A model generated the notes under the pieces. The model made no database searches. It was not told the origin of the DNA and saw only the letters and a program-made list of their open reading frames with translations. A DNA stretch of 64,000 nucleotides from contig KV918992.1 in the NCBI GenBank assembly GCA_002049455.2, forward strand, positions 1-64,000, given 5' to 3'. Both the position numbers and the translations under genes were made by a program. Below are positions 5,058-51,051 of this stretch, piece by piece (within the stretch, counting starts at the first letter, position 1; each line of letters begins with the position of its first letter). This DNA comes from Porphyra umbilicalis (Eukaryota > Rhodophyta > Bangiophyceae > Bangiales > Bangiaceae).

Positions 5058-5062
5058 GCCGG

Positions 5063-31064: not shown

Positions 31065-31137
31065 GCGAGGCCCGACACCGCGGTTGCTCGAGCGGGTGCA
31101 CGGAGCGCGCCGCGACAGCGCTTGGGGGTGGCCCGGT

Positions 31138-31145
31138 GGCTCTGG
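31138..31145. repeat. 8-bp target-site duplication (left), GGCTCTGG
   Basis: GGCTCTGG abuts the left end of the 18-kb transposon. The identical octamer abuts the right end at 49128-49135, and each lies exactly nine bases outside the perfectly matching 25-bp TIR core. Confidence 0.85.
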
Positions 31146-31179
31146 GTACATGCTAAAACCAGTTCCCGTTCGAGTCTCT
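31146..31179 (+). repeat. Left terminal inverted repeat of the 18-kb transposon
   Basis: Nine outer bases, partly matching the other end, are followed by 25 bases (31155-31179) that are a perfect reverse complement of 49094-49118. The core starts AAAACCAGTTCCCG and ends CGAGTCTCT. Confidence 0.88.
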
Positions 31180-31743
31180 TTCTACCAATGAATCGTCGTT
31201 CGAGTCTCCGCTCCGGGCGAGGCCTGCGTCCCCGATTTGTGCATCTGCAGGACATGGGGGGGGGTTCGTTCGAGTCTGTTTCAGGCTCCTGGAGGGGGGT
31301 GTGACGTGTGCTAACCTGGAATCCTCCGTGGGCGTCCCGTCCACGTCATCATCACCGACGGAGGTGACCTGGGGAACCGGCTCGCATTCCTAATTGAATT
31401 ATGGAAGACTTACTTGGCCGTCGCGGGCTGGTGGCTGGCGCCGGCGGCGGGTCGTTCTCGCGCGCGCTCGTCGTGATGATTTGGCGGGCGATGCTGGCGC
31501 CACGGTTGGCGCGACGAGCGTCCCCCACCCCCATTTCAGGAGCGCCGATTGCCGCCACCCGCCCGCACCGCCGACATTTTGCGCGGGCGTCACGCCGCTG
31601 GGGGCGCTTTCGGCTGGCGGCATGGATCCGTGCTGGGGCGCTCGCACGCTCCTGCGCTGGGCCGGTCGCTGCGTGATACGTTGCCACGCTGGCCGGGGTG
31701 CACGCCCGCTCCCGCGTCGCTGTCGGCCCCAGCGCACCGCTTG

Positions 31744-32047
31744 CTGGGGGCGCTGGGGGCCGGGACCCGGCGGCCGCTGGGGGTGCTGGGCGGGGCGCGC
31801 GGGCTGCCGCTGGGCGCGCTGGGGGGCGGGCACCGCCGGCCGCTGGGGGCGCTGGGCGGGGCGCGCGGGCTGCCGCTGGGCGCGCTGGGGGGCGGGCACC
31901 GCCGGCCGCTGGGGGCGCTGGGCGGGGCGCGCGGGCGGCCGCTGGGCGCGCTGGGGGGCGGGCACCGCCGGCTGCTGGGCGGGCTGGGCGGGGCGCGCGG
32001 GCGGCTGCTGGGCGCGCTGGGGGGGCCGCACCGCCGGCCGCTGGGGT
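31744..32047. repeat. 66-bp minisatellite, left array, part 1 (about 4-5 copies)
   Basis: The unit contains GGCACCGCCGGCCGCTGGGG and GGCGCGCGGGCTGCCGCTGG. Period 66 bp keeps every frame open, so the long apparent ORFs here are a by-product. Confidence 0.9.
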
Positions 32048-32389
32048 CGCCGAGGTGTGCGCTGCGCTTCGCGGTGGCGTCGTCGCGGGGTGCACTGCGC
32101 TTCGTGGTGGCGTCGTCGGGGGTCTGGTTGCGCCCCACGATGGGACCTGTGGCGTGCCACGGTTTGGGTGCCCTGGGTGGCGGCGGACGTGTGCGCGGTT
32201 TTAGCGCGATGGGGTTTGCGTCGTTATTGCGGGGCGGTCATTGGCAGCCGACAGCCAATCATGCTGCCACATTGTGACTGCGGATTGACTGTTGACTGGG
32301 CGCACTTTTCGGGTGGCTCTGCTGGCGATTGCGGGCGCCCGGCGGGCCGTGTGGTCGCCTGCTGGGTGGGGCGCGCGGCCGGCCATTGG

Positions 32390-33581
32390 GCGCGCCGGCG
32401 GGCGGGCACCGCCGGCCGCTGGGGGTGCTGGGCGGGGCGCGCGGGCTGCCGCTGGGCGCGCTGGGGGGCGGGCACCGCCGGCCGCTGGGGGCGCTGGGCG
32501 GGGCGCGCGGGCTGCCGCTGGGCGCGCTGGGGGGCGGGCACCGCCGGCCGCTGGGGGCGCTGGGCGGGGCGCGCGGGCGGCCGCTGGGCGCGCTGGGGGG
32601 CGGGCACCGCCGGCCGCTGGGCTGGCTGGGCGGGGCGCGCGGGCGGCCGCTGGGCGCGCTGGGGGGCGGGCACCGCCGGCCGCTGGGGGCGCTGGGCGGG
32701 GCGCGCGGGCGGCCGCTGGGCGCGCTGGGGGGCGGGCACCGCCGGCCGCTGGGCTGGCTGGGCGGGGCGCGCGGGCGGCCGCTGGGCGCGCTGGGGGGCG
32801 GGCACCGCCGGCCGCTGGGCTGGCTGGGCGGGGCGCGCGGGCTGCCGCTGGGCGCGCTGGGCGGCGTGCACCGCCGGCCGCTGGGGGCGGTGGGCGGGGC
32901 GCGCGGCTGGTCGCCGGGCGCGCTGGGCGGCGTGCACCGCCGGCCGCTGGGGGCGGTGGGCGGGGCGCGCGGCTGGTCGCCGTGCGCGCTGGGCGGCGTG
33001 CACCGCCGGCCGCTGGGGGCGGTGGGCGGGGCGCGCGGCTGGTCGCCGTGCGCGCTGGGCGGCGGGCACCGCCGGCCGCTGGGGGCGGTGGGCGGGGCGC
33101 GCGGCTGGTCGCCGGGCGCGCTGGGCGGCGGGCACCGCCGGCCTCTCGGGGCAGCGGGCGGGGCGCGTGGCTGGTCGCTGGGTGCGCTGGAGGACTGGCA
33201 CCGCCCGCGCCGGGGCGGGCTGGGCGCTGCGCGCGGATAGCCGTTGGGCGCGCTTGGGGGAGCGCACCGTCATCCGCGGGGCGACCAGGGCGGGGGGCGC
33301 TGCTCGTCGTTGGGCGCGCTTGTGGGCGGGCACCGCCAGCCGCTGGGGGCGCTGGACGGGGCGCGTGGCTGGTCGCTGGGCCCGGTCGGGGGCGGGCACA
33401 GGCGGCTGCTGGGGGCGCTGGGCGGGACGCGCGGCTGGGCGCTGGTCGTGCTCGGGGGCGGGCACCGCCGGCCGCTGGGGGCGGTGGGCGGGGCGCGCGG
33501 CTGGTCGCTGGGCGCGCTGGGCGGCGCGCACCGCCGGCCGCTGGGGGCGGTGGGCGGGGCGCGGGGCAGGTCGTTGGGCGC
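32390..33581. repeat. 66-bp minisatellite, left array, part 2 (about 18 copies)
   Basis: The same unit as 31744-32047 follows after a 340-bp unique interval. Two sub-families occur in blocks: CTGCCGCTGGGCGCGCTGGG units first, then units with GGCTGGTCGCCG. Copies past about 33235 are degenerate. Confidence 0.9.
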
Positions 33582-34058
33582 AATGGTTGTGGAGCTGCGC
33601 CTTGCCGCTGCTGTGGTCCGTGCTGTGTCGCTCTTGTCGCCCCTCTTCATGGGCGGCATCTCGGCGCACCTGTTTACGTTGGGGGGTGCGTCGCGCGGGG
33701 GTGTGGCGTCGTTGGGCTTGTCGCCGGCTTTTTGCATGGGCGCGTTGGAGTGGACGTCGGTTTCTGTGTTGGGGACGATGGGGAGGTCAACGTTTGCGGT
33801 GTTGGCGTCGGTGGATGGGACGCTCTGCGATTCGGTGGGGTCGTTGGGTGGCCAAACAGGAGGTTGCCGACTTGGTGCGCGGGGAGGGGAAGCGTTCCAA
33901 GGCCCAATAGCCGGCGTGCGCTGGAAGTTGCTTTGTACCCCTCGCTTTCGTGTCCATGCGTGTCTTGGCACGTGGCGTCAATGGATGGTCTTGTCGTGTG
34001 GGGAGCCATGTCTACGATGAAAGACTTTTATCTGTCTCCCGCATGCTGCTGCTCCATA

Positions 34059-37000
34059 CTAGTACAAACTCGCACTCCCCCTCTCCGTATTCCCCACCCC
34101 GTCCACGTACTTCTTCCGGTACCATCGTGGCCACTTGCTTGGCGTGAGCTCCGTCTCGACATCCTTGTACATGGCAATGACATTGGACAGCGCCTGCTGG
34201 TACGTGGTAAAGATGATAAAGTTGTCTTGGTTCATCAGGCGGAGGTGGTGCTCCTGGCGGCGGGAAAGGGCGTTCCGCTCCTCGGACGAGGAGGTATTGA
34301 TACTCTCCATCGAGCAGTAGGAGTCCGGGTTCATCGCTTTCGTGCACGACACGTGATTTTTACGCCAGTGGAAGCGGTCGACCAAGAACGAGACGGCGCG
34401 CGCGACGAACGGCAGGCGGCACAACGCTGTCTTTAGCGTCGCGCAGGCGAAGTCATACACCACCTGCGACGGCAGCGTGGCGCACCGCTGCGCGATGAAC
34501 TCGATCGGCATCCGCTGCCCCTCGGACCCGTCCAGCACGACGACGCCGATGCACTTGGGGTGGGTACAGGTGCAGAAGGCCCCGAACGTCCCACCCGTGT
34601 ACTTGTTCTCCTTGCCCATCAGGTGGTTGCAGTCCGGCTCGTCCGTGGCCGCCTGGGCGGTGCCGTAGAAGAGTGGGATGGGCCGCAATACGGGGAAGTT
34701 GGGCGCCCACACACCCGACGATAGGAAATCCTCGGGGGACTCGTCGGTGATGCCGTACGCCGCCTTGAACGACGCCACTGACGCAGGCGTGTCAATCCAC
34801 GTCGCCGTGTACTGGGCGGGGGTGAAGCACTCGAGCGGGTGGGCACTGGCCATCTGCGCCTTGGTAAAGTTGTCGATGGGCGGCTGGTCACCGTCGCCGG
34901 GCGCCATCCCGTCGTCGCCACCCGGTTGCGACACTTGGTTGGCCGCTACAAACGAGTCGTACGCCGCCGCAGTGTCTTTGAGCGCCGATAATAAGTCCGC
35001 AAGCACGGGGCGGAGGCCAGCGTCGCGCTCGAGGCCAGGTCCAAGACAGGCCACAGCGGCGCGAAGCAGCCGCAGCTCGCACACGTCCGCCCGGTCAAGC
35101 ACGGCAGCCAGCTTGGTCGACGTAAAGCCGTCGCTGCTCAGCACGTTGATGAGCGCGTCGATGGCGCTCCAGTCCCCGTCGGGGGCCCAGACCACGAACG
35201 GGTCCACTGTCACCGCCCGCACAAAGTCGACCACCTTGAGCGTCGCCGCCGCCGTGGTCGGGATGCTCGGCTGCAGCCGGAAGAGCATGTCGGCTTCCAG
35301 CGAGGTGCCTTTCGCCCCACCCGTATCCGCCAGCGCCGGCTCCGTGAACAGCTCGGCAAACCGGGCGAGCGGCGCAAAAGTGTCCCAGTACTTGCGGGGC
35401 GCCGCAAAGGACTCGCCGTCGACGGACACGCGGTCATCGGCCGACGTGAGCTCCTCGTCGGACTCCTCCACCTCCGACTCGTCGGAGTCGGCCCCGCGCA
35501 CGCCAACATCGATGCTGCCAGCGGGTAACGGCCGCTGCAGACCAGGTGGCAGCTGGCCGGGGTGGCCGAGTTCCGCTTTGGCGTCCACCGCCATAGGATT
35601 CGCACCCCCTCCACCGTCACCGACAGAGGCGGTGGGAGGGCGTGACGCCGCCGCTGTGGGCCCCCCCATCTCCGCCGCCTCGGCCTCAGCAACGGCGGTG
35701 TTGGGCGCCGGCCCCACCTCGGCGGGGCGCGCGCGCACTACGTCCTGGATCCGCGTCATTAGCGGCTCGGGCACACGCCGGAAAAGGTCGAAGCTGGCCG
35801 CTACAACTTGGGTACAGAGGGAGCGCGCCACGAGCTCGCAGCGAAAGAAGCGGCGCAAGAAGGTCGCCAGGGCAGGCCGCACCCCCCCGTCGACGGTGGG
35901 GCACCAGCCACGCCCGGCAGTAGATGCCGACGTCCCGTGCCGTTCGGACCCCGCAAACGACACCTCCCGGCCGTCGACGGAGACGTTACCCAGCAGCGTC
36001 GACACGGCCATGACGTAGCCGCGCATGCTCGTCACCGTCGTGACAGTCTTGGAGGAGCCCGCCGCCGCCTTGGACGCTGTGTTGAGCACAGAGCCCAGGG
36101 CCTTGGCCACGGCCGAGTCAGTGACCATGTGGGCGTGCACGCTCGCCCGCGGGATGGCGCTCGTGCGGATCGTGTGGCGCTGGAAGCGTCTCTTGTATTT
36201 GAGCTTGTAGCCCAGCTGCAAGCCGTCGAAGCACAGGACGTCGATGACACCGCTCGCGGAGACGCACTGCGCGCAAGTTGACACGTCCAGCGGCAGACCC
36301 TTGATTACCAGCGACAGGTAGAGCGTCAGCGCCTTGCGCAAGGTGGCAACGCTGCGCAATCTGCTCGAGCGCGGTGCGTACTTCAGCGCGGCCGTGAGCT
36401 CGCTGTAGCCGGCGCGCAAGTACGAAGAGGACCGCAAGGAGCAGCCGTTGCGGGACAGGTTGACCGCCAACTCAAACAAAAAGGCCTCGGAGTAGGCCGT
36501 GAACGGCGACGAGAAGACCAGGCCGTGCTCACGACCGTCGGGCATCACCCGCAGCAGGCAATTCGGGCACCGCCACGAGTACACCTTGGCCATGGCCGAG
36601 CCATCGTCGAACTCAACGCGGCACTCGTGCGGAATGGGCGGCTTGAGGGGGCTCGGGGGGACCCTGCAATACGGGCAGAGTGCCTCGGCGGGGAAGTTGA
36701 GGATGGTCTCGGAAGTGGCAGCGGCCTCCACCAGGTTGATACGCGTCAGCTGCGCCGCCGTGGGCGGCACCAAGTCGCGCAACAGCCGCGACTGGTGCAC
36801 CTGGTAGAACCGCGAGAAGAGCATGTACGGGTTGTTAGGGGCAACGGGATTGCCTCCCTGCTTCACCGGGTCGTCGTCCGGGAAGCGCATGTTGGGCGTC
36901 CCGTCGTCGCCGTCGTCGAAGCCACCGTGGCCGCCGCCCGCCGCCGCCGCGACTGCAGCGCTCTGGTGGATGCACTCGCCGTCGGCGGTCGGGCAGGCAA

Positions 37001-38069
37001 CGCACACCCACTTCTTGGCGACGGTCCGCCGCACGACGGCAAAAGGCCAGCTCCCCTCCCCCCCAGAGACCGTGCACAGGGACGCTCCGTACGGGATGGC
37101 AGTCCCGGCAGCGCGGGCCACCCCGCGCACCGACGACTCGAGCACCTCAAACACCTCCTCCAGTGTCATCTGCGCGGCCGCCCGGACGGCCTCGAGGGCC
37201 GCCTCCATGTCCGACTCAAACGTGCAGCCCGTGTCCAGGCACTTCTCAGGCCCACTGCATGACGACACGGGGCGTTTGACGCCGCCCTTGGTCTGGAGGG
37301 TGACGCAGATCGCCACCGTCTGCTGCTTGCAGATGTCGGCGCGCACACGGGAGCGGCCGAGCTTCAGCAAGACGCCGACCGCCCCGCTGCGACCCAACGT
37401 CCACCCCCGCGTCCTCAACGCCTTCTTGGATACGCCCGTATGTACTCGGAGCGCCTCCAGCCCCGACAGCGCACGCGCCGCGATGCCCTCCTCTTCGTAG
37501 TTGTCCTGCAAGTTCTTGTGCATCTCGTTGCAAAAGAGCGCAACGAGCACGGGCCGCATGCTCTCCCGCACGTTGTTGAGGCCCCGCCCCCGCCCCCGGC
37601 CTGGGCCAGGCCCTCGCCAGCCAGCATAGTTGCCGACCCTCATTGCCCGCCCATCCGCACGCCGTCGACGCGCAGGGATGCGAGCGTCGGGGAGGTTGCC
37701 AGCTCCAAACATGTCCGCCATGGCCGCCCCACCATCGGCCAGCAGGTCGGCCGCGGTGCTGAAGCCCATGCGGCCCGACAGGCCGGCGGATGACACCGGA
37801 GTCGTATTGCGCGGCTCCCGAGGGCGCGGCGGATCGGACCGAGCGGCCGAATAAAGCCCGTTTCCGGCAACGCTCCTTGCCGTCACGTACGAGAGGGGCG
37901 GCTGCCCGTCAGAAGGAGGGGAGGGGCTGCCCCCGTCGCAACCGCTCGCCGCCGCGACCGACGCGAAGAGGACGATCCACGCGAAGAAGAGCAGCCAAGG
38001 CGACGGGGGACACGCCAAGGCTGCAAAAAGTAGGGCAGCAACGGTCGCCAGCGTGCGTCGTGGGGCCAT
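34059..38069 (-). CDS. KDZ/Zisupton-like transposase (1336 aa)
   Basis: This is an uninterrupted frame from the first ATG (MAPRRTLATVA, context GCGCCATGG) to the stop at 34059. In order, there are two hydrophobic N-terminal segments, then an Arg/Gly-rich stretch and a helical region. A SWIM/CxC-like zinc site CVACPTADGECIHQ (about 36.97-37.02 kb) and a CPYC...CPNC zinc ribbon (about 36.56-36.68 kb) follow. The putative catalytic core has FDGLQLGYK (36.2 kb), YDFAC (34.45 kb), DRFHWRKNHVSC (34.36 kb) and NTSSSEERN (34.28 kb). The core matches the D...D...E layout of KDZ transposases, including YDxAC and FHW-NH-C. About 580 residues, with an acidic disordered part, separate the first two Asp motifs, as in families with a helical insert. 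The hydrophobic start is odd for a nuclear enzyme; a later Met (MGFSTAADLLADGG) is an alternative start. It lies inside the TIR-bounded element. Confidence 0.8.
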   Translation of the reverse strand: MAPRRTLATVAALLFAALACPPSPWLLFFAWIVLFASVAAASGCDGGSPSPPSDGQPPLSYVTARSVAGNGLYSAARSDPPRPREPRNTTPVSSAGLSGRMGFSTAADLLADGGAAMADMFGAGNLPDARIPARRRRADGRAMRVGNYAGWRGPGPGRGRGRGLNNVRESMRPVLVALFCNEMHKNLQDNYEEEGIAARALSGLEALRVHTGVSKKALRTRGWTLGRSGAVGVLLKLGRSRVRADICKQQTVAICVTLQTKGGVKRPVSSCSGPEKCLDTGCTFESDMEAALEAVRAAAQMTLEEVFEVLESSVRGVARAAGTAIPYGASLCTVSGGEGSWPFAVVRRTVAKKWVCVACPTADGECIHQSAAVAAAAGGGHGGFDDGDDGTPNMRFPDDDPVKQGGNPVAPNNPYMLFSRFYQVHQSRLLRDLVPPTAAQLTRINLVEAAATSETILNFPAEALCPYCRVPPSPLKPPIPHECRVEFDDGSAMAKVYSWRCPNCLLRVMPDGREHGLVFSSPFTAYSEAFLFELAVNLSRNGCSLRSSSYLRAGYSELTAALKYAPRSSRLRSVATLRKALTLYLSLVIKGLPLDVSTCAQCVSASGVIDVLCFDGLQLGYKLKYKRRFQRHTIRTSAIPRASVHAHMVTDSAVAKALGSVLNTASKAAAGSSKTVTTVTSMRGYVMAVSTLLGNVSVDGREVSFAGSERHGTSASTAGRGWCPTVDGGVRPALATFLRRFFRCELVARSLCTQVVAASFDLFRRVPEPLMTRIQDVVRARPAEVGPAPNTAVAEAEAAEMGGPTAAASRPPTASVGDGGGGANPMAVDAKAELGHPGQLPPGLQRPLPAGSIDVGVRGADSDESEVEESDEELTSADDRVSVDGESFAAPRKYWDTFAPLARFAELFTEPALADTGGAKGTSLEADMLFRLQPSIPTTAAATLKVVDFVRAVTVDPFVVWAPDGDWSAIDALINVLSSDGFTSTKLAAVLDRADVCELRLLRAAVACLGPGLERDAGLRPVLADLLSALKDTAAAYDSFVAANQVSQPGGDDGMAPGDGDQPPIDNFTKAQMASAHPLECFTPAQYTATWIDTPASVASFKAAYGITDESPEDFLSSGVWAPNFPVLRPIPLFYGTAQAATDEPDCNHLMGKENKYTGGTFGAFCTCTHPKCIGVVVLDGSEGQRMPIEFIAQRCATLPSQVVYDFACATLKTALCRLPFVARAVSFLVDRFHWRKNHVSCTKAMNPDSYCSMESINTSSSEERNALSRRQEHHLRLMNQDNFIIFTTYQQALSNVIAMYKDVETELTPSKWPRWYRKKYVDGVGNTERGSASLY

Positions 38070-40974
38070 GGCGCATTCAACGAAAGGGCACAAAACCAAA
38101 AGCGGGCCAGCGGTGACAACCAGCAGGAGCCCCCAAGCCAAAGCGGCAAAGTGCAGATGCACGGGTAGCGCGACGACGACAAACAAATCAAAGCCCTCAG
38201 CGGGAAGAGAGAGGCACCTCAAAAGTCAGAACCGCACACTGTCGGGCGGGCTCACCGCCTTCTCATGGGGGTACCCATATTGTGGACGCCAGTGCGGGGC
38301 TGCCAACGTCACCAGTGTGGGGCTGCCTACAACTCCAGTGTGGGGCTGTCGAAGAAAGGAGACGAGACGCGACCAGACACGACCGTACATTCGACACACA
38401 GACGCAGCCGTCACTTACGAGTACCAGAGGGGGCAGGCACTGAACGGTCACTCCTCACATAGTACGGCTCGGTCCAAGATGGTGGGGAGGGTCATGTGCT
38501 GAGGGATCCTCCACTCCACTCATGTTGCACCAAACGGCCAAGTCGCTAGCCGAGTGGTGTCGCCACAGGGCGTACCCAGCACCGGCCAGCCGGCTGTGTT
38601 ACCATCGCTGCAGCCAGCGGGCCGGCCACATCGCTGGCGACAGCCACATCAGATCAGATGTAGTTGACAGCGACAGGGGGCAGTGCCACTTTGAAATTTG
38701 TTCTAATCAGTTGCAAATATGAGCCACAAATGCGACCCACATAATTGTGGTAACTGTCTGATTTCAGTCCGGAACGGCAGACGGTGCCTCGCCTACTGGA
38801 AGCTCAGCACACACCGGAGCGTGGATGGAGAGCCGTGTGGTGCCCGTGGAGCCAGAGGCAAGTCGATACAGAACGGATGCGCCAAGCTGCGAAATCTGAC
38901 CCACAGGTGAACACATAACTGTATTCACAAGAAATAGTACATGCCTCGAGTAACTCGGTGCATCGTCCTGGGGCGATCTTCGGTCTCTCTCTCGTTCGTC
39001 CTGATGAGCTATAGCAACGGGCAGCGCTTCCACCCCAGCCTCTTTTCCTGCGTTTTTCTTGCCACATGTATGTTACAGCCCTCTGTATGATGTGTTGGTG
39101 TGCTCAGCATGTACGCATTAGCTCTGCGGGACTCGCCCACCGGCAAGCACTACCCGCGGATTCTCATGTCAGCGTCCGCGTCAAGAAAAAGCCGTCCCTT
39201 GGCCCCAGATGCCGCCTTTTGGCCACTTTCTTTTGCCCATCACCCTTTTGGGGTCGTCAGCAACGCACTACAACCAGTTCAGACTGCATATACCTCCATG
39301 CCAGGCCTGGCGCACACAAAATACACTGTAATCATACAGAAGCGGCCTTTCGCCGCCGGAGCACCGTGTACTGACCTCACTCTGGAAGGACACTTGATGG
39401 ACACCTTAAGGGTGAGTTCTGAAAGAGCTCAGCGTAGTTTGGTGGTGCTGTGCCAGACAGTGGCTTCACGCGGTTGCTGCCACCAGGCGCGTCCATTTCG
39501 GCTTCAAGCTGTGCGCACTCTTCAACGCAGCGTGCCCCGTGCGAAAAAGGTACATGAGCAGATGGGGGGGGGGGTTCTTGTTGCTCTGATACACAATCGT
39601 GCTGCGCCATGCGACAAGGGGGAAAAGACGGACACACAATGCACCGCTTTTGCACGAAAACGCAATGTGGTCCCTGGACCTTGCTGTGTCTGGTTTTTCG
39701 ATGGGGGCTGCGTGCGCTCGGTCGCCGTACGTGTATCGATGGTGATGGTGTGAAGAAACCCAACAGAAAACCCGTAGCGAGAGCGGGAGTGGCACGCCAC
39801 TGACGCCCCTCCCCACCTTGGCGCACCCAAAAAGACATGAAGGACGGGTCTGCTCATGAAACCATCCACATGCGCACTCGCATCAGCCTTCATAGAACCA
39901 TGACGGACGTTTTTTTTCTGAGAGTGTTTTGGTAGAGTTGGGCGTGGATGTGCCCTCCCAAGGCCCTTGTGGGACACCATGGCAGTGGGGAAGTAGGTAT
40001 ACGAGCACCGGACAGAGAATCGTAAACGTTCTTTTGCGTGGATGTGATGCATGTCAACAGACACCCCGTGGGTTCTTTTTGTGGAAACTCTCGATGGAAC
40101 GGCTTTGGCTTCAAAACGAGTACAACCGAAGCGCAGGCGCAAAATCCACTGGATGTTGCAGTGTCAGCAAGATATACTCTGGGCATCCGGCCCCCCACTG
40201 GGGTGTGGTTGACGGCTGGTGCTGGTAGCCCCTCACGTAACGGCTAGGTCTTCCCCAACTGTGCGTACTTCCACGCTCAGGAAAGCATCCGACTGCCCCC
40301 CGCTCCCTGGCCCGCGCACCTCCCTGCCCCACTCAACCAACCCACCAGCACGGGGCACCGCATCCAGAGGCCACCGCCCTTTCTGGTACGGCTACGTTGG
40401 GGGGGCTCGGGGCCGCCTGCGGCTTTTTCTCGAGCCAGGGCTGGCGGTAGCCCACCCCACGCCCGCCCGCCGCCCCCCCGACACCTCTTCCGTGGCGGCC
40501 GACACGGACGCGGCCGCCGCCGCCACTTGACACCCATACTGCTTTTTTCCCAATGCGACGACAGCGCCGGTACCACCCCCGCCGCCGAGCGCGTCCACTC
40601 CCGCGCCACCATCACCACAGGCGCGGTGCCGGCGATGCCGAGTATGGGTGTGTTCCATACAAAACTGCAGTACCGCTGCCAGCTCGCCCCCCCCCGCACC
40701 GCCTGTCTCCTTGCCCCCTCTACCCCACTGATGGGGGAGGCCTCCAGTTTCATTAGCAAGTGTCACAGCACGAGGGAAAGAAAAGAGCGTTTGCCAGCCG
40801 CTTTAATGCGCACCCACAACACAAACAGACGAGAAAAAAGAGCACCGAACCAACATGGACACAACCATCACGAAGAACACCGCTTGTTCCCACTTAAACG
40901 CCGGCTGGGGTGGGGGGGGGGGAAGAGGAGGGGGGCACCGCCGGCATGGCCACGTTGGTCACGGCCAGCACTAC
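38070..40974. other. Interior of the transposon upstream of the transposase; no firm gene
   Basis: This is less GC-rich than its surroundings and likely includes the transposase promoter. Minus-strand patches at 40530-40760 (SFVWNTPILGIAGTAPVVMV) look protein-like but have no clear start or family. Plus-strand frames at 39.1-39.75 kb are unremarkable. Confidence 0.4.
38285..38352. repeat. Three tandem about 24-bp units upstream of the transposase
   Basis: CCAGTG(C/T)GGGGCTG recurs three times at 23-26-bp spacing, about 215 bp upstream of the transposase ATG on its strand. These are candidate regulatory or protein-binding repeats. Confidence 0.6.
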
Positions 40975-41457
40975 CTACCCACCGTGGATGAGCTGGACCA
41001 CCACCGCCACCGCCGCGACCCTCCCCCCCCCCTCCTCCTCACCACCGCAGGCTTCCACCACCCCACCACCGAGAGCCCCTACCACAACGACGACAAACAG
41101 TGCAGAGATGAGTGCCAAGAGCCGGGGGAGGCGGGGAAGGGCGCCCGCTACTTGGGACCGCCCGACTTGGCACCGTTGCCGGCGGCAGGCGCGTGGATTT
41201 CGGGCGCGCGCAACGGCGACGCCGGCTGCGGCCAGCCCGCCCCAAAGTCCCGCGGCGGTGGCGGTCAGGGCGTTGTACCGCTCAATGTCGGCGGCTGTGG
41301 GCCCAGCGGGGGGCGCGGCCGCAGGCGCCGCCGGAGCGACTATCGGCTCAGGCGGGGAGGAGCCGTCAGCCGGAAGTGCAGCAGCAGGGGGCGCGGATGG
41401 TACCTCCCCCGCCGGCATGACGATCGCCTCCGGTCGGGAGCCGCCATCAGAGGGCAT
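40975..41457 (-). CDS. Possible small single-pass membrane protein in the transposon
   Basis: From an ATG at 41457 (MPSDGGSRPEAIVMPAGEVP) the frame encodes 160 residues. A Pro/Ala-rich N-terminal half precedes a short helical ADIERYNALTATAAG stretch. A basic segment and a strong hydrophobic helix (LLALISALFVVVVVGALGGG) follow, with a short tail. Codon-level composition differs from the surrounding low-complexity DNA. No family is recognised, and the frame could continue upstream without an ATG. It is co-oriented with the transposase and Ulp1 genes. Confidence 0.35.
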   Translation of the reverse strand: MPSDGGSRPEAIVMPAGEVPSAPPAAALPADGSSPPEPIVAPAAPAAAPPAGPTAADIERYNALTATAAGLWGGLAAAGVAVARARNPRACRRQRCQVGRSQVAGALPRLPRLLALISALFVVVVVGALGGGVVEACGGEEEGGGRVAAVAVVVQLIHGG

Positions 41458-41751
41458 GGGAGGCAATCCAGCCGTGGTTCGGTGGGAGGAGGAAGGGGCT
41501 CGCCAAAGCGAAACGGGTATGGGAGAAGATGGGGCTGAGGGCAAGGTCAGCAGTAACGGTCACTGTTGCGGGCGCTGGGAACAGAGGGGCCTCTGGACGA
41601 CGGTGCAGAGGGCGCCACAAGGATTGGCATCACAGCAGGGTTGCTTGATCGATACGCCCGACGGTCAGGAACCTGGCCAATAAACCTCGTGACCTCGTTT
41701 GATCTGGAAATTGAGCAGGTTTGAGCCACGAGTGTTTTGATTGAGAATCGC

Positions 41752-43095
41752 TTATCCACGTGACATTGGCCAATAGGACCCCAGACGAAAAATCTGAAGC
41801 CTTGCACCGTGCACCGGGTGGACTAGAAACCGCCGCGTATCGGCTCTAGCGTGGGAACCGCCGCAGATCCGCCGCCAAAAGAACACGCGACCGCAGCGTT
41901 GCATCGTCCGTTGCCCCGCTTCTGCCATGGCTCCCCCACCGCCACATTTGGCCTTCGCGCCGTCCGCGGCTCCCTTCTGGTTGTTGGGCCGCCCCAATAA
42001 TCTCGGTTGTCTGGTCGGGTCCCTCCACTGAAAGAGTGGCCGCCGCCCCGTCTCCTCCTCCACCACCGCGCCTACCACTGCACGGTGGCGACTCCACGAG
42101 TGGAGCACGTGGGATCCGAGACGGAGAAGGATAGTGGCGGCGGCTGCGGCGGGCGGAGGTCGACAGCCGCGGGGGGGAGAGAATGTGGCGGTACGGGGTG
42201 GTTTACTTCCGATGGGGGGGGGGTGGGGGGGAGGAGGACCGGCGGCGGCGCACCTGCCGCACCACAGGGACGAACGACGAGTCCGAGAGCGGGCCGGCCC
42301 TGGCGGTATGGCCTCAGCCTCACTCTCGCGCCGCCGGACGCCTGCCCGGCGCGCAGGGAGATGGCTTCGAGTCCACCCCCGCCCCCGTGTGCCGGCCACC
42401 GCCGCCGCCGCCGCCGCCAGCCTGCCATGACCGGTGCGCCTGCCGCCCCCGGTGGGCGCGGCGCGCGCCGGATCCACACCAGCGTGACGGGTGCGGTCGG
42501 TCGCCCGACGGCAGACGCGTCTCGTGTGGCAACTGCCGACGTCGCGCACCGGCCACCGGGTGCGGGTGCGGGGGTGTGGGCGCGAGAGCGGTTGGCGGTC
42601 GCGGTCGGGAGTCAGGCACGGCGGCCGCCGGACAGCGCGTCGTCGGTCATGGGGGACCCGGTTGGGAGGCGCCTTGGGGGGGTGGCTGCCCGCGTGCCCG
42701 GCCGGCGGCCGACCCCTCTCGCCACCCCACGCGAGGTGCGTCGGGGCGCGGCGGCGCGTGGGGACACGCCGGCGCCATCCCCGCGTCGGACCGTCGGCGT
42801 GTTTCGCGCTGTCCCGCCCGTTGCTGGGGTGCAGACAACCCGCGCCGTGCTCATTGGCGTCGGCGCCAATGGGCGGGTCGGCACCGTTGGGCGCGGGGGC
42901 GCTTTGGGGGGGGAGGCGCCGCTGGTACCTGCCAGCTGCGGGGGGAACCTGGTCACCGACAGCGACCGGCGCGGGGCGGCTTGCGTTGGGCGTCGTGCGT
43001 CGCGTAGTAGTGGAGGTGTGAGCCGGCGGTGCTGCCGTAGTGGGCATTGCCGGCATGGGGCGCTTCTTTTTGTCCACTGTGCTCGACCGCAGCAA
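41752..43095 (-). CDS. Doubtful open frame downstream of the Ulp1 gene
   Basis: This long minus-strand frame is Arg/Pro/Ala-rich without recognised motifs. The first part (TVDKKKRPMPAMPTTAAPPA) looks more protein-like than the rest, and the better composition seems to move to another frame after a C run near 42905. It may be a broken accessory gene of the transposon or merely stop-poor DNA. Confidence 0.2.
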   Translation of the reverse strand: MLRSSTVDKKKRPMPAMPTTAAPPAHTSTTTRRTTPNASRPAPVAVGDQVPPAAGRYQRRLPPQSAPAPNGADPPIGADANEHGAGCLHPSNGRDSAKHADGPTRGWRRRVPTRRRAPTHLAWGGERGRPPAGHAGSHPPKAPPNRVPHDRRRAVRRPPCLTPDRDRQPLSRPHPRTRTRWPVRDVGSCHTRRVCRRATDRTRHAGVDPARAAPTGGGRRTGHGRLAAAAAAVAGTRGRGWTRSHLPARRAGVRRRESEAEAIPPGPARSRTRRSSLWCGRCAAAGPPPPHPPPIGSKPPRTATFSPPRGCRPPPAAAAATILLRLGSHVLHSWSRHRAVVGAVVEEETGRRPLFQWRDPTRQPRLLGRPNNQKGAADGAKAKCGGGGAMAEAGQRTMQRCGRVFFWRRICGGSHARADTRRFLVHPVHGARLQIFRLGSYWPMSRG

Positions 43096-43122
43096 ACAAC
43101 GAGAAAAAAAGGATGTTGGCTT

Positions 43123-46068
43123 CTAAACTACAGCGACAGCGCCACCGAGGGGCGGCGCGCTGGCACCTCTCCACGCAAATCGTGCGCTCGCATAGTAACG
43201 CCCACGAGAGAGAACATGGTGAACGAGCGCGAGGCGCAGTAGGTCCGCGCGGGGGCGGGTGGAACCTAAAGGACAGCCACCCATCGCACACACAACATGA
43301 GCGACCGCATACACCCCACAACTATGGCCGTCTGGCTGCGTTGGGCCCTCGCACCGGGTGACCTTCCACCCCTGGCTTCCGCAAGGAATCCCACCCGGAA
43401 ACGCCGCCTGCTTGTCCGCCACTGCGTTGCACAGGAGGAGTATCCTCTCAATGGCCAACGCCATCTCCGTGTCCCTCGTGCCGGGCAGCGAGTCGTACAC
43501 AAGCACTTCCCTGCCCATGACGTTGACGACCGCCGACACCCAGTGGGCGTTGCACAGATTCACCACCATGCCAAGCCACCGGCAGGCGCCGACCTCAGCG
43601 GCGACCTCGGTCGCGGCCGTCTGTGCAGCCACAAGCGCCACCTCCGTGCCCCTGATGCGTAGGACGGACGCCACTTGCTCTATGAGGAGGGCGTAGCCGC
43701 CAACCGAGCGCGCCGCGACACGCTGCTCGACCATGCACGCGTTGATCGTGGCGGACGTCAGCCACGACGTCTGGCACGCGCTCGCCACCTCTCGGATGTT
43801 GACCGTCTGCCCGCCGTACGCATTGTCGCCCGCCTCGGCACCGTTGGCGCCGAACGCCTCATCAAAGAACCGCCACGCGTCGTCGCCGATGCGGCTGTTT
43901 GAAAGCCACTCGAAGACCTCACCAGCAACGGCGGCGACGGAGGCTGACGGCGAGAAGATGGGGCCAAGCCCCACCGGAAAAAAGTCCAGGGAGCCCGCCA
44001 GGTCCCCCAGCCATGCAAACGACTGCTTCAGCATCGCCACGTCCTTGTTGAACGTGTGCACGGATAGCATGTCCATGACCGCCTCGCGGGTGAGGGTCGT
44101 GCGCGGGAAGGAGTTGCTGCTCACCTTGAGGATGGCATCCGAGTTTTTGGAGGTCGAGGCGTCGATGTTGGTGCTGTAGTACTTCATGCACTCGACCACG
44201 ATCTCGTAGGGCAGCAGCAGGGACTGGGACCGCCTCGCCTCGGTGGCGGCCTGCCGCTCCTCGTCGTCAACGAACGCGTTTTCGATGCTCGACGAGTCCA
44301 TCTCCACCGAAACCACGTCCGTCGAGGCGGCCAAGCCGCGCAGCGTGCAGCTGTCCGCGTCCCGCAGCACATGCGAGAGGGGTATCGAAGAGCCCGACGA
44401 CGGCGAGCTGTCGTTGGCGTCGCCCGTGGCCGGCGTCGAGCCCTTAGCACCCACCGCCAAGCCGTCTACGTCCGTGGCTGCCGCGGCTGCGGCGGCCTTG
44501 TTCGCCGCCGGGCTCGCCATCTTGGTGGTCGTGGTGTGCTTGGTCGGGCCGGTGCCCCGCTTCTTCTTTGGGCTCTTGCCCGACTCCTTCTCCTCCGAGC
44601 TGCCCCGCTTCTTTGTCAGGGGGGCGAGCCCCGACGCGGCCGCCTCGGCGGACCCAAACTTGGACCGAAAGTCAGACGTCCACCTGACCTTGAGCTCCAT
44701 GCACAGGTTGTACATCCAGTAGTCGCTCAGCCACGCCGCCACGATCACGGCGAGGCGCCGCTCCCCGCAGCTAGTCTTGACGATGTTGTGCCACGGCGGG
44801 TACAGGCAGCCGGCGTGCACGGTGATCTTGTCCTCCTTCTCCTCAGTCTGCCAATAGTTCATCAGCAGCTCCATGGGGCACGCCTGGGGCCACGTCCACT
44901 GGAGGCGGCCCTTGCCCGGTGGCGTCACGGCGATGCTGATGCGCTTGAATATATTCTTGACGCGCGTCGTCGTCATCTGGTTGATGGTCGCCAGCCCGAG
45001 GGACTGCAAGACGTCAGTCACCATCTTGCTCGTCAAGATGCGGGTGCCGACCGCCCCTGACTTGGCCTTGAGCAATACGGCGGGCGGGTGCAGAGAGAGC
45101 GGCGGGCTACCGTCGGGGCCGTCAACAACGACGACACTCCCAGCCCCGACGCCCGCAGCCGGTGCGCTTCCGCTGCGCGACCGTCGCTGCCCCCCCGAGC
45201 CGCCGCGACCGGTGATGACAGCCGGCCCAAACGAGGGTCGACGCGCTTGCCACCACGCTTGCTTGAATGCACTCTTGAACGCGTCGGTCGCGCTGTCCGA
45301 CACGCAGTCGATCACCTCGCCGTCGTACGGGCGGCTGGTGGAGCCATCCCCGCGCTCGACCACCAGGTACACGCCCGAAAAGCACTTGTCAACGCGCCCG
45401 AGCGCGGCGCCCAACGACAGCATGCCATGCAGCAGCGCCAGTGCGGGTTCGGGCGTCGTGGGCGGCACCGGCAGGCTGGCCGACGACGGCGCAGGTGCGG
45501 AGGCTGCCCCACTCGGCGGCGCCGAGTAGGATGACGCACACCTTCCGCTGCCGGCCGCCGATACCAAAGCCGATGAGGGTGCTGCGGGTGATGGTCGCGA
45601 CGGAGGTGGATGCGACGGAGGAGAGCGCGACAAAGGAGGGTGCGTCTTGGCGCCCCGCTTCATGGAAGCGGCAGCCGCAGAAGCGGCGGCCGCCCCGCGA
45701 GGAGACAGGCGTCTATTGGGTGACGCCGCACGGGGGGTGGATGGTGATGAAGAGGGCGGCGAGCCGCCCGCGCAAAAAGGGAGGGGGGGCAAGTGCCGAG
45801 GCGCCACATCCTCAGCGGAAGGCGGAGCATCTGGAAAAGTCGGGGGGGGGGACACGTGGTCGGGTGTGACACATGGGATGCTTGGAAGGGGAAACGGAGT
45901 GGGTGCAGCAGCCGGCGACCGAGGAGAGAAAGGGTCCCGAGCACAAGGAAGCACACGCTGGATGGGGCGAGGAATGGAGAAGGCTGCAGCGGATGGGGAG
46001 GGCGTCTGCATCATGCTGGGAGCCAAAGAAAGAGGTGCGGGGCAACCCACTGCCGTTCCCGAGTCCAT
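43123..46068 (-). CDS. Ulp1-like (C48) cysteine protease protein of the transposon (981 aa)
   Basis: An uninterrupted minus-strand frame runs from the first ATG (MDSGTAVGCPAPLSLAP). The first 200 residues are Pro/Ser/Ala-rich. The middle has a conserved-looking globular part (MVTDVLQSLGLATINQMTTT; SDYWMYNLCMELKVRW) and a Lys-rich nuclear-localisation-like KKKRG stretch. The C-terminal 250 residues carry the peptidase signature: NAHW (catalytic His, about 43.55 kb), VLVYDSLPG (Asp, about 43.49 kb) and QPDGHSCGVYAV (oxyanion Gln and catalytic Cys, about 43.32 kb). Ulp1 enzymes cleave SUMO-like modifiers. Copies inside DNA transposons are known, for example in plant KI-MULEs, with unclear roles. 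It lies within the TIRs and is co-oriented with the transposase, so it is probably part of the element. Confidence 0.8.
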   Translation of the reverse strand: MDSGTAVGCPAPLSLAPSMMQTPSPSAAAFSIPRPIQRVLPCARDPFSPRSPAAAPTPFPLPSIPCVTPDHVSPPPTFPDAPPSAEDVAPRHLPPLPFCAGGSPPSSSPSTPRAASPNRRLSPRGAAAASAAAASMKRGAKTHPPLSRSPPSHPPPSRPSPAAPSSALVSAAGSGRCASSYSAPPSGAASAPAPSSASLPVPPTTPEPALALLHGMLSLGAALGRVDKCFSGVYLVVERGDGSTSRPYDGEVIDCVSDSATDAFKSAFKQAWWQARRPSFGPAVITGRGGSGGQRRSRSGSAPAAGVGAGSVVVVDGPDGSPPLSLHPPAVLLKAKSGAVGTRILTSKMVTDVLQSLGLATINQMTTTRVKNIFKRISIAVTPPGKGRLQWTWPQACPMELLMNYWQTEEKEDKITVHAGCLYPPWHNIVKTSCGERRLAVIVAAWLSDYWMYNLCMELKVRWTSDFRSKFGSAEAAASGLAPLTKKRGSSEEKESGKSPKKKRGTGPTKHTTTTKMASPAANKAAAAAAATDVDGLAVGAKGSTPATGDANDSSPSSGSSIPLSHVLRDADSCTLRGLAASTDVVSVEMDSSSIENAFVDDEERQAATEARRSQSLLLPYEIVVECMKYYSTNIDASTSKNSDAILKVSSNSFPRTTLTREAVMDMLSVHTFNKDVAMLKQSFAWLGDLAGSLDFFPVGLGPIFSPSASVAAVAGEVFEWLSNSRIGDDAWRFFDEAFGANGAEAGDNAYGGQTVNIREVASACQTSWLTSATINACMVEQRVAARSVGGYALLIEQVASVLRIRGTEVALVAAQTAATEVAAEVGACRWLGMVVNLCNAHWVSAVVNVMGREVLVYDSLPGTRDTEMALAIERILLLCNAVADKQAAFPGGIPCGSQGWKVTRCEGPTQPDGHSCGVYAVAHVVCAMGGCPLGSTRPRADLLRLALVHHVLSRGRYYASARFAWRGASAPPLGGAVAVV

Positions 46069-46580
46069 CGCGCAGTGCCCCACGACCTGGCAGCCGGCAC
46101 CCGCCGCCTGGCACGCGGTACCCACCACCCAGCACCCGACGTCCAACAACCAAGCGCGCTCACGCGGCCACTCGCAGCACCCGATATCCTCGATCACACA
46201 CGCTCTGGCACCAGCTGCCGTGCACACGCCGTCGCCACCCACCGACCCAGCAAAACCAACTCCTTCCTACTCGTCGCCGCCACTCTGTGCCGAGCCGATT
46301 CCCCCGACCTGCAACGCACTCGTCACGCAAACGTACGGGCTAGCGCACAAAAGGACGCGCTGTGGGAGAAGCGTACTAAGCGATCAGAGGGCCCCCATAG
46401 CGATCCCCCAGGGTGTACCCACGAACAGCGGGCGGGTGGGGGGCGGCGTGGACCGCCTGCCCGGGGGACGCAGCGAGCAGGCGGGGTGGCCAGCCGCGAG
46501 CTCTGGATGCAGCCCGTATCGGGGCGCGCGCGGGAGAGCGGCAAAAAACGAATCCACCACACTGCACGCGGCCCGCCCCA

Positions 46581-46724
46581 GTCGGCGGCGCGCCAGCCTG
46601 CCCAAACAGCGGCGCGCCGGCCTGCCCAAACGGCGGCGCGCCGGCCTGCCCAAACGTCGGCGCGCCGGCCTGCCCAAACGGCGGCGCGCCGGCCTGCCCA
46701 AGCGGCGGCGCGCCCACCTGCCCA
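46581..46724. repeat. 24-bp tandem repeat, six copies
   Basis: GGCGGCGCGCCGGCCTGCCC plus AAAC repeats six times with minor variants, inside the right part of the transposon. Confidence 0.85.
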
Positions 46725-46779
46725 GCTGCCCCCGTGGCGCGGTGCGCGCGCGCGCGCAGCGGTTCCACAACCGGCGCCG

Positions 46780-47300
46780 GTCGAGGGCCGCCCCCAGCAG
46801 CCCCCCCCCCCCCCAAAGAGACCCGCCAGGCGCCCCCCGAGCGCGACCGACCCCCAGACAGGCAGCGACGCGCGGCCCCAACAACCGCCCCAACGATCCC
46901 GCGGAAGCCCCCCCGCGCCAGGCGCCGGTGGCCGGCCCGCACCGGCGGGCGTGCAGCGACAGCGCGGCGCCCCCCGAAAAAGGGCGCGCAAAAACCCGCG
47001 GCGGCGCGGCGGCGCGGCGGCGTGGCGGCGCGGCGACAGCGTGCACCCAGCGCCCCGTCGCAGCCGCCGGCATGCGGGAGGGCCGCCCCCAGCAGCCCCC
47101 CCCCCAAGCGACCCGCCAGGCGCCCCACGGGCGCAACCGACCCCCCGACCGGCAGCGACGCGCGGCCCCAACAACCGCCCCAACGACCCCGCGGAAGCCC
47201 CCCCGCGCCAGGCGCCGGTGGCCGGCCCGCAGCGGCGGGCGTGCAGCGACAGCGCGGAGCCCCCCGAAAAAGGGCGCGCAAAAACCCGCGGCGGCGCGGT
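46780..47300. repeat. Tandem duplication of about 290 bp
   Basis: The block starting GAGGGCCGCCCCCAGCAGCC and ending in AAAAACCCGCGGCGGCGCGG occurs twice (about 46785-47010 and 47077-47300), followed by a GGTGCGGCGGC microsatellite to about 47390. Open frames across it are by-products. Confidence 0.75.
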
Positions 47301-47583
47301 GGCGCGGCGGTGCGGCGGCGCGGCGGTGCGGCGGCGCGGCGGTGCGGCGGCGCGGCGGTGCGGCGGCGCGGCGGCGCGGCGGTGCGGCGGCAGCACCCAC
47401 GCAGGGCCCCCCCCCAGCCGCCGGCGTGCACGCCCCCGGCCGTGCCGGGCGGCCGAGAAATTGAGCCTGTATTCCCACCAGTGGCGTGGCGGTGCGTAGC
47501 GGACCCGCATGCGTGCAACGACCGCCACCGCGCAGCCCGCGACCGCAAACAGCGGAACCGGCGTGCGTAGGGCGCCCCCACCC

Positions 47584-48712
47584 CCAGGCGCGCCGGTGGC
47601 GAGGGCCAAAAAACCGCCCCAACGACGCCCGAGGAGCCCCCCCCCTGGCGCGCCGGTGGCGAGCGCCAAAAAACGGCCCCAGCGAGCTGCCAGGACCCCC
47701 CCCCCAGGCGCGCCGGTAGCACGCGCCAAAAAACCGCCCCAGCGACGCCCCAGGAGCCCGAACCCCCCCAGGCGGGCCGATGGCGAGCGGCCGAAATCAG
47801 CCCCAGTGACCCCCCAGGACCCCCCCCCCCAGGCGCGCCGGTGGCGAGCGCCAAAAAACGGCCCCAGCGAGCTGCCAGGACCCCCCCCCCAGGCGCGCCG
47901 GTAGCACGCGCCAAAAAACCGCCCCAGCGACGCCCCAGGAGGCCCAACCCCCCCAGGCGGGCCGATGGCGAGCGGTCGAAAGCAGCCCCAGTGACCCCCC
48001 AGGACCCGCCCCCCCAGGCGCGCCGGTGGCGAGCGCCAAAAAACGGCCCCAGCGAGCTGCCAGGACCCCCCCCCCAGGCGCGCCGGTAGCACGCGCCAAA
48101 AAACCGCCCCAGCGACGCCCCAGGAGCCCGAACCCCCCCAGGCGGGCCGATGGCGAGCGGCCGAAATCAGCCCCAGTGACCCCCCAGGACCCCCCCCCCC
48201 AGGCGCGCCGGTGGCGAGCGCCAAAAAACGGCCCCAGCGAGCTGCCAGGACCCCCCCCCAGGCGCGCCGGTAGCACGCGCCAAAAAACCGCCCCAGCGAC
48301 GCCCCAGGAGGCCCAACCCCCCCAGGCGGGCCGATGGCGAGCGGTCGAAAGCAGCCCCAGTGACCCCCCAGGACCCGCCCCCCCAGGCGCGCCGGTGGCG
48401 AGCGCCAAAAAACGGCCCCAGCGAGCTGCCAGGACCCCCCCCCCAGGCGCGCCGGTGGCCAGCGCCAAAAAACAGCCGCAGGGACCCCCCAGGAGGCCCA
48501 ACCCCCCCAGGCGGGCCGATGGCGAGCGGCCGAAATCAGCCCCAGTGACCCCCCAGGACCCCCCCTCCCAGGCGTGCCGGTGGCGAGCGCCAAAAAACGG
48601 CCCCGGCGAGCAGCCAGGAGCCCCCCCCCCCCTGGCGCGCCGGTGGCCAGCGCCAAAAAACAGCCGCAGGGACCCCCCAGGACCCCCCCCCAGGCGCGCG
48701 GCTGACGAGTGC
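47584..48712. repeat. About 62-bp minisatellite with 186-bp higher-order structure, right array
   Basis: Monomers begin AGGCG(C/G)GCCG.TGGC and contain CAAAAAAC(G/C)GCCCCAGCGA. Three monomer types (GCCAAAAAACGG, CGCCAAAAAACCG, GGCCGAAATCAGCC) alternate, giving a three-monomer unit of about 186 bp. The array ends about 400 bp inside the right TIR. Confidence 0.9.
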
Positions 48713-49093
48713 CCAAAATCCGCCCCAGCGACCGCCCCAGGGCAGGGCTGGCGGTAGGAGTGGAATCCTTCTCCTGGGATGAGTATCATCAACAGCCCGC
48801 CGCTTGTCCACAACTGAGGGATGGCGGATGGTGCTGGGAATGACATCAGGGGAGCACGCCGGCGCCAAAAAGCAGCACCATTTCAACTCGCCACCCCAAG
48901 TACTGAAAGTAAACCCTTTGTACTGTCCAGACACAGCGTATGTACAGCAGCGTCCCGACACGCTCCGACACACGCCGCAACGTAGCGCTCTGCATCGGCG
49001 ATTGCGCGCCTTGACGTTTGACATAGACTCGAAGACTTCGCGGTCTGGAGGCTGGAAACCGTGGTTGCAAAATCGTCGAGTGCGGGGTCTGTG

Positions 49094-49127
49094 AGAGACT
49101 CGAACGGGAACTGGTTTTCTCACCCTC
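49094..49127 (-). repeat. Right terminal inverted repeat of the 18-kb transposon
   Basis: 49094-49118 is the perfect reverse complement of 31155-31179; nine less conserved outer bases follow, then GGCTCTGG. Confidence 0.88.
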
Positions 49128-49135
49128 GGCTCTGG
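49128..49135. repeat. 8-bp target-site duplication (right), GGCTCTGG
   Basis: Exact copy of 31138-31145 at the symmetric position outside the right TIR. Confidence 0.85.
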
Positions 49136-50023: not shown

Positions 50024-51051
50024 ATGGCGCCCGCCAAGGCTGGCGGGGGCGGCGGCGGCGGCAAAATGATCCAATACATCAACTGCCGCATGCGCGTGTC
50101 GCTCGACGACGGCCGCACGCTCATTGGTAAGCTGCTGGCGTTTGACAAGCACATGAACGTGGTCCTCGCCGAGACGGAGGAGTTTCGGCGCACGCGCAAA
50201 AAGAAGGCGGCGGCTGCGGCGGCCGCCGCTGCCGCGTCGGCCAACGGGGGCGCCCCCTCGACGGCCGACGCCAACGGGACGGGGGCGTCGTCCGTTGCCG
50301 GCGCGGGCGTTGAGAAGCGCACGCTCGGCATGGTCATCCTCCGCGGCGAGTGCGTCGTGTCGCTGACCGTCGAGTCGCCGCCGCCGCCGCCCAAGAAAAA
50401 GGCCCCAAAACTTCCCGCGTCCATCTCCAAGGCCGCCCCGGCGGGCCGTGGCGTCGCCGCCGCCGCCCCGCCGCAGCTGTACGGGGCGGGGGGGGCGGGG
50501 CCCCCGCCGGGGGGCGGGGGGGGGGGGGCGCCGCCGGCGTTGGCGGCCCCGCCCTGCCCGCTGGCCGCGGCTTTTCGCCGGGCCCGCTGCACCGCGGCGG
50601 CGTCGGCGGCGGGCCGGGCGGGCCCGGCGGGCCCGGCGGGCCGCTGCCGCCGCTACCTGGCGGCGGCATGCCCCCCCCCGGTGGCGGCGCCTTTGCGGGT
50701 GGCGGCGGCATGCCGCCCGGTGGTGGTGGCGGGGTTCCCCCGGGCGCCATGCCCCCGTTTGGTGGTGGCGGGCTGGCGGTGCCGCCCCCCCACATGGCGC
50801 CACCGCCTGGGTATGGGGGCAACCCCGCGGCGGCGGCGGCGGCGGCGGCCGCCGCGCAAATGGCGGCAGCGGTGGCGTATGGGGGCGGGATGCCTCCGCC
50901 GCCAATGGGCATGGGCGCGCCCCCGCCGGGGGGGATGGGGCGCGGCTACCCGCCCATGGGCGGGCCGATGCCCCCACCGGGGGGGCGGGGGGGGGGGCGC
51001 GGCCGGGGGGGTTACCCGCCGGGCGCGCCCCCGGGCGGCCGCAAGTGGTAG
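50024..51051 (+). CDS. SNRPB: Small nuclear ribonucleoprotein SmB/B'
   Basis: This is a core spliceosomal protein of the heptameric Sm ring on U snRNAs. From ATG 50024 (MAPAKAGGGGGGG) an Sm fold follows: Sm1 has MRVSLDDGRTLIGKLLAFDK and HMNVVL at residues about 22-49, and Sm2 has LGMVILRGECVVSL near residue 105. SPPPPPKKK then opens the Pro-rich tail typical of SmB. The tail's Pro/Gly/Met-rich part (PPMGMGAPPPGGMGRGYPP) and RG-rich end (GGRGRGGYPPGAPPGGRKW) lie in another frame, and the switch coincides with a G run around 50512-50528. A one-base homopolymer error is more likely than a real break. The loop between Sm1 and Sm2 is enlarged by an Ala-rich insert, and the usual RGEN of Sm2 reads RGEC. 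Confidence 0.9.

Follow-up and report, generated by a model that had tools for sequence, protein, structure and literature searches.

A KDZ-type DNA transposon with defined ends and an Ulp1 protease gene in the red alga Porphyra umbilicalis

A bounded transposon with two unbroken genes

The window analysed here is a stretch of 64,000 nucleotides from the red alga Porphyra umbilicalis (assembly GCA_002049455.2, contig KV918992.1, positions 1 to 64,000), and it contains a transposon of 17,982 bp (31146..49127) with two unbroken open reading frames (ORFs) on the minus strand, one for a transposase assigned below to the KDZ (Kyakuja-Dileera-Zisupton) superfamily and one for a predicted Ulp1-type protease. 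Its ends were set by the adjacent target-site duplications and by alignment with 19 other paired copies in the genome. The octamer GGCTCTGG is found immediately 5' (31138..31145) and immediately 3' (49128..49135) of the transposon, nine bases beyond each arm of a 25-bp inverted repeat (31155..31179, plus strand; 49094..49118, minus strand) whose arms match exactly. A first-pass annotation of the window had reported both the repeat and the octamers, and both are present, the octamers lying just outside the interval 31146..49127. The odds it gave for a chance octamer match, about 1 in 65,000, become about 1 in 26,000 (3.9e-5 for one 8-mer match) given the base composition of the window. Any doubt over this single duplication is removed by the finding of duplications at other sites, as described below.

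The outermost nine bases of the two ends are unlike each other, yet each is specific to its end across copies: all 20 paired copies have GTACATGCT at the left terminus, and 19 of them have TCACCCTC at the right. The inverted repeat is therefore subterminal rather than terminal. Four exact copies of the decamer GTTCGAGTCT are present on the two strands of the 64 kb, three in the left end on the plus strand (31168..31277, with starts at 31168, 31198 and 31268) and one in the right arm on the minus strand (49096–49105), and these repeats are possible transposase-binding sites. The decamer also resembles the B-box sequence of transfer RNA (tRNA) genes, presumably by coincidence.

The transposase ORF (34059..38069, minus strand) encodes 1336 amino acids, and all of the KDZ-type motifs quoted in the first-pass annotation were located in it: FDG at residue 614, YDFAC at 1205, FHW-NH-C at 1233 and NTSSSEERN at 1258. 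Candidate catalytic residues are D615, D1206 and E1263. A cysteine-rich part (36558..37010, minus strand) begins with a CxxC...CxH motif (36966–37010) that we take to be SWIM-like, followed by CPYC and RCPNC motifs in a stretch weakly matching the CxC4 domain. The second ORF (43123..46068, minus strand) encodes 981 amino acids and matches the Ulp1/Peptidase_C48 family PF02902 (E 5.5e-9; 36.6 bits against a cut-off of 20.7). It has the motifs of the H, D, C triad (HW at 43528–43548, YDS at 43480–43500 and Q..SCG at 43306–43338, all minus strand) and, by its sequence, is an Ulp1/Peptidase C48 protein with predicted SUMO-protease-like activity.

Other copies in the genome

The genome searched comprises 83.8 Mb in 665 contigs; copies are named by contig, that of the window being C232. 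Searches with the two ends, partial matches included, returned at least 32 matches to the left end and at least 35 to the right. Twenty-two left matches start at the first base, and 20 of these were paired with a right end and compared, C237 and C92 being unpaired. A perfect 8-bp duplication is present in 17 of the 20 paired copies, or at 15 of 17 when counted by distinct site, and the target octamers show no clear consensus across sites. The duplication of C128 has one mismatch, and C36 is flanked on each side by the 9-bp repeat CTTGGTGAC.

Four copies are 16.6–18.0 kb long (C232, C202, C36 and C141); the remainder are ten of about 1.9 kb, one of 1.1 kb, three of 4.3 kb, C91 of 9.5 kb and C20 of 18.3 kb. 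Nine of the ten 1.9-kb copies align to the window element solely over 157 bp at the left and 109–118 bp at the right, and the tenth, C55, over the same left segment and, at the right, over two pieces of 69 and 116 bp. As the 1.9-kb copies share nothing else with the window element, the 157-bp left end (31146..31302, plus strand) and the 118-bp right end (49010..49127, plus strand) are probably sufficient in cis. Among these small copies, identity to C87 is 99.3% for C1 and 99.0% for C60, and all three stand in different flanks; recent movement of the family is therefore indicated.

The three 4.3-kb copies, C290, C278 and C523 (L052, L053 and L059), share both flanks, which are nearly identical, and are one insertion that has been multiplied by segmental duplication or by redundant assembly; within their non-autonomous core lies about 2.4 kb of additional sequence. 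C109 (L047) and C294 (L054), both of 1.9 kb, have a common left flank (99%) and different right flanks, with a duplication only in C294; ectopic recombination, duplication or an assembly join are possible explanations. C20 (C20:231909–250238, L075–L076) has a perfect 8-bp duplication and is a 1.9-kb-type copy enlarged by long insertions; the other DNA between its pieces exceeds 12 kb and has no transposase or Ulp1 match.

Coding constraint and the pairing of KDZ transposases with Ulp1

Transposase and Ulp1 are both intact in three of the four large copies, C232, C202 and C141, where neither gene has internal stops. Pairwise protein identity is 74–90% for the transposase, with a ratio of nonsynonymous to synonymous substitution rates (Ka/Ks) of 0.16–0.21, and 55–84% for Ulp1, with Ka/Ks of 0.31–0.37. 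The Ulp1 frame of C36 is open, and its transposase corresponds to the public P. umbilicalis protein BU14_0085s0030 in two pieces, the first without a mismatch over 925 ungapped positions and the second with a single one over 177, the alignment gaps being stretches omitted by the public gene model.

Ulp1 genes also accompany other KDZ transposases of this genome, which holds 114 Ulp1 matches and 28 matches to the Pfam KDZ family PF18758 (19 above the cut-off, including two that pass together with their neighbours). At 20 of the 28 an Ulp1 match lies 0.7–1.1 kb downstream on the same strand, an arrangement with a chance of about 0.2% per locus; at the other eight, Ulp1 is absent within 10 kb. 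The open frame is equally long in the KDZ and Ulp1 searches at 14 of the 20 paired loci, so that the two domains there lie in one frame, and at the other six they fall in different or interrupted frames.

The clade of the window transposase has no fewer than 25 loci (from 47 matches, combined by contig, with 35 of 1304 candidates scored), several of which are fragments or carry internal stops. Within 15 kb, Ulp1 is convergent on the 3' side at 11 of these loci and in tandem on the 5' side at four, which form the window subfamily; at the other ten it was not found within that distance, and the match that one of them shows 17 kb away is part of a different KDZ copy. Pairing thus takes three layouts: fused or directly downstream, convergent, and tandem. 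A first Ulp1 tree of 16 rows was unresolved, with one very long branch. In a tree of 13 rows, which leaves out the row of that branch as well as C28 and C187, five convergent and three tandem sequences are split from three fused and two other sequences with support of 100/100; with rows C28 and C187 kept, both beside the window lineage, support is 76/93 and the program warns of long branches. By this tree the Ulp1 partner of the window clade was probably co-inherited and re-oriented, and the fused type seems to have been recruited separately, so that two Ulp1 lineages are probable, on the basis of few tree rows.

A chance passenger with no function for the element would explain why Ulp1 is under weaker constraint than the transposase and why no match to it lies within 15 kb at ten of the 25 window-clade loci. 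We consider this unlikely for a gene whose Ka/Ks is well under 1 and which accompanies the transposase at 15 of the 25, the eight compared all being of one Ulp1 lineage, while Ulp1 of another type recurs behind the PF18758 matches (three of the 20 compared).

Relationship to the KDZ superfamily

Residues 1147–1302 of the window transposase match three PF18758-matching ORFs of the same genome by blastp (E 2e-12, 8e-12 and 2e-11). Two of these ORFs exceed the PF18758 cut-off singly (one being L013, the match with E 2e-12), and the third reaches 26.1 against 26.6 bits. Comparison of the window family with the PF18758 set by hhalign gives a probability of 95.7% (E 1e-8) over 266 columns of the C-terminal catalytic part, and aligns D1206 and E1263 with a D and an E that are invariant in that set. 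In our alignment of 15 family proteins, D1206 and E1263 are unchanged in every row that reaches them (13 rows), and position 615 holds D in 13 rows and E in the other two (P0015 and P0016). These comparisons of sequences and profiles indicate that the catalytic domain is homologous to that of PF18758 members and place the transposase in the KDZ superfamily.

Within KDZ, the 8-bp duplication and the inverted repeats (25 bp and perfect in the window copy) are traits of Zisupton and Dileera; the Kyakuja traits of a 7-bp duplication, CA..TG termini and no inverted repeats are not those of the window family. The element therefore fits a Zisupton/Dileera type rather than Kyakuja. The first-pass description of it as KDZ/Zisupton-like thus holds for KDZ, and its second term agrees with the duplications and repeats, which fit Dileera as well.

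Interpretation of the element

We conclude, with a probability of about 0.93, that the element is a potentially autonomous, cut-and-paste KDZ DNA transposon of Zisupton/Dileera type that makes 8-bp duplications and belongs to a divergent red-algal lineage. This reading is drawn at the level of sequence from the ends, the duplications, the other copies, the constraint on both genes and the homology with KDZ.

Several observations weigh against it. The window transposase has no match to PF18758 at the gathering score—which is a detection threshold rather than a defining KDZ trait—so that the proposed comparison with KDZ models succeeds by blastp and by profile alignment and fails by direct Pfam score; at E up to 10, PF18758 is matched by only two of the 15 aligned proteins, with a best value of 0.0049, and the window protein, which is one of the 15, has no such match. 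D615 of the FDG motif stands opposite the invariant D of IDG in the PF18758 set by a weak alignment (1.1 bits) that lies outside the profile match. The CxC4 match is likewise weak (E 0.027; 14.8 bits, the cut-off being 26.9); CxC4 appears at E up to 10 in ten of the 15 aligned proteins, with a best value of 0.0077. The structure model of residues 424–1336 has a mean predicted local distance difference test score (pLDDT) of 41.8, too low for assignment of an RNase H fold, and a sequence search of the PDB with the transposase gave no match. C109 has no matching duplication, and its right octamer matched none of the ends read when a partner was sought among the unpaired ends. A search for the single-octamer empty site proposed in the first-pass annotation, confined to the window insertion, found none and returned the two flanks and a dispersed repeat of the left flank. 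As the assembly holds one copy each of the right flank and of the greater part of the left, the missing empty site says little. Finally, C232, C202 and C141 are mutually old (Ks 0.28–1.0) and the C36 transposase is split over two frames, so that the window copy is no more than potentially active at present.

The split gene of C36, and the 18.3 kb of C20 without a transposase or Ulp1 match, would also suit a giant element moved in trans with its genes as mere passengers, as is thought of Ectocarpus giant families, whose transposases are often pseudogenised according to passages of PMC12477816; this is improbable for the window element, as C232, C202 and C141 keep unbroken frames under constraint for both genes, and each of the four copies of 16.6–18 kb has transposase sequence between these ends. 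An element of another superfamily with 8-bp duplications and a merely KDZ-like protein—for example hAT, which usually gives such duplications (PMC12730594, in part)—would agree with the low Pfam score but is very improbable, as no other Pfam transposase family was matched at E up to 10 (HMMER filters drop most weak matches) and PF18758 members are matched by sequence and profile across the catalytic part.

For a KDZ transposon of this type, we propose that the 1336-aa transposase would recognise the element ends, probably through the GTTCGAGTCT repeats, and would excise the element with a putative D-D-E active site. Insertion into a staggered cut would then produce the 8-bp target duplications, with no evident sequence preference. 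The element or its close relatives would also mobilise the non-autonomous copies of about 1.9 kb, which share just the outer ends. Ulp1 is probably a co-inherited accessory whose most likely role would be to strip SUMO, or a modifier resembling it, from the transposase or from proteins of the host that act in silencing or repair.

Minisatellites, interior and surroundings

The paired minisatellite arrays noted in the first-pass annotation are present. The left array has a 66-bp unit in about 28 copies (31743..33581, plus strand), and the right arrays have 24-bp, 290-bp, 8-bp and 185-bp units (46583..48741, plus strand); C202 and C141 have arrays near both ends at corresponding places, with unit lengths partly different. 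The 1.9-kb copy C87, the one tested, has no minisatellite of score at least 150, and a copy moved in trans therefore does not require the arrays in cis. Long ORFs that run through the minisatellites (for example 31622–33910 and 45662–47464, plus strand) were in our judgement not taken as genes, having no Pfam match and mostly piecemeal matches between copies. The stretch between transposase and Ulp1 is generally less conserved than both genes, and no third gene was identified in it; a 434-aa ORF (41752–43056) was set aside on a single partial match, to C202 (41% over 145 aa).

Elsewhere in the window, three successive ORFs at 3411–9516 (plus strand) contain a zinc knuckle, a reverse transcriptase, and an integrase with a chromodomain, and look like a Ty3-type chromovirus-like retrotransposon spread over several frames. 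The dispersed repeat (30986–31066) ends about 80 bp left of the transposon and has 28 other genome matches of 39–83 bp, one of them in the window at 25892–25968. Two probable host genes lie to the right, one for an LSM-domain protein (50024–51214) and one for a protein matching chondroitin N-acetylgalactosaminyltransferase (CHGN; 57669–59738).

Comparison with known elements

Zisupton elements, which occur in fish, fungi, algae and some nematodes, resemble the window element in their 8-bp target duplications and inverted repeats (passages of PMC12730594) and in very long transposases, of up to 1400 aa in fish and nematodes (passages of PMC9297572). The latter source describes Zisupton as multi-exonic, whereas the window transposase is a single unbroken ORF; a separate Ulp1 gene, minisatellite arrays and a transposase below the PF18758 cut-off also set the window element apart. 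Kyakuja belongs to the KDZ group as well, but has 7-bp duplications, CA..TG termini and no inverted repeats (PMC12730594, in part), unlike the 8 bp, GTACATG..CACCCTC termini and inverted repeats of the window family. Zisupton has been noted in algae before (passages of PMC9297572 and PMC8226300), and a 2025 account names it as the only KDZ group for which the transposon, its ends and its target duplications were well characterised (PMC12730594). One isoform of the platyfish Zisupton protein includes an F-box domain (PMC12062965, in part), a further association of ubiquitin type.

The size of the element, which the first-pass annotation thought unusual, has precedents: KDZ elements of 30–32 kb are published for brown and green algae, in Ectocarpus, whose KDZ elements above 10 kb reach 30.3 kb, and in Chlamydomonas, with a moving one of 31.7 kb (passages of PMC12477816). 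The kind of element is thus already known. The window element differs from these giants in its red-algal host and in the two-gene content retained in its large copies; the word Ulp1 is absent from the main text of PMC12477816. Red algae also have large multi-gene DNA transposons in the giant EnSpm elements (16–20 kb in Chondrus; passages of PMC6431247 and PMC12477816), whose transposase is of a different superfamily, and Repbase holds 1181 entries for Chondrus crispus, with the KDZ share unstated in the relevant passage (PMC4455052).

Our literature searches, whose coverage did not extend to the founding papers, found no Porphyra KDZ element and no report of Zisupton with Ulp1. Within the reach of those searches, what is new is the family with its divergent transposase, the definition of its ends and partners, and the repeated association with Ulp1. 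Earlier work may have described Ulp1 or SWIM domains in connection with Zisupton proteins, in which case less of this would be novel.

The window element thus offers a KDZ transposon that is complete and delimited at both ends, with its two genes unbroken and with non-autonomous partners, and its short ends (157 and 118 bp) together with the transposase are suitable material for a mobility assay. The pairing of KDZ and Ulp1, repeated in three layouts, poses a testable question on SUMO and transposon control. It is possible, though less likely than not, that within a single red-algal lineage KDZ transposons recruited Ulp1 modules on two or more occasions, once as a fused gene or one directly behind and once as a separate gene that switched between convergent and tandem layouts, which would make desumoylation a recurrent selected need. 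If so, removal of a SUMO-like modifier may serve these elements in escaping SUMO-dependent silencing or in controlling their own transposase.

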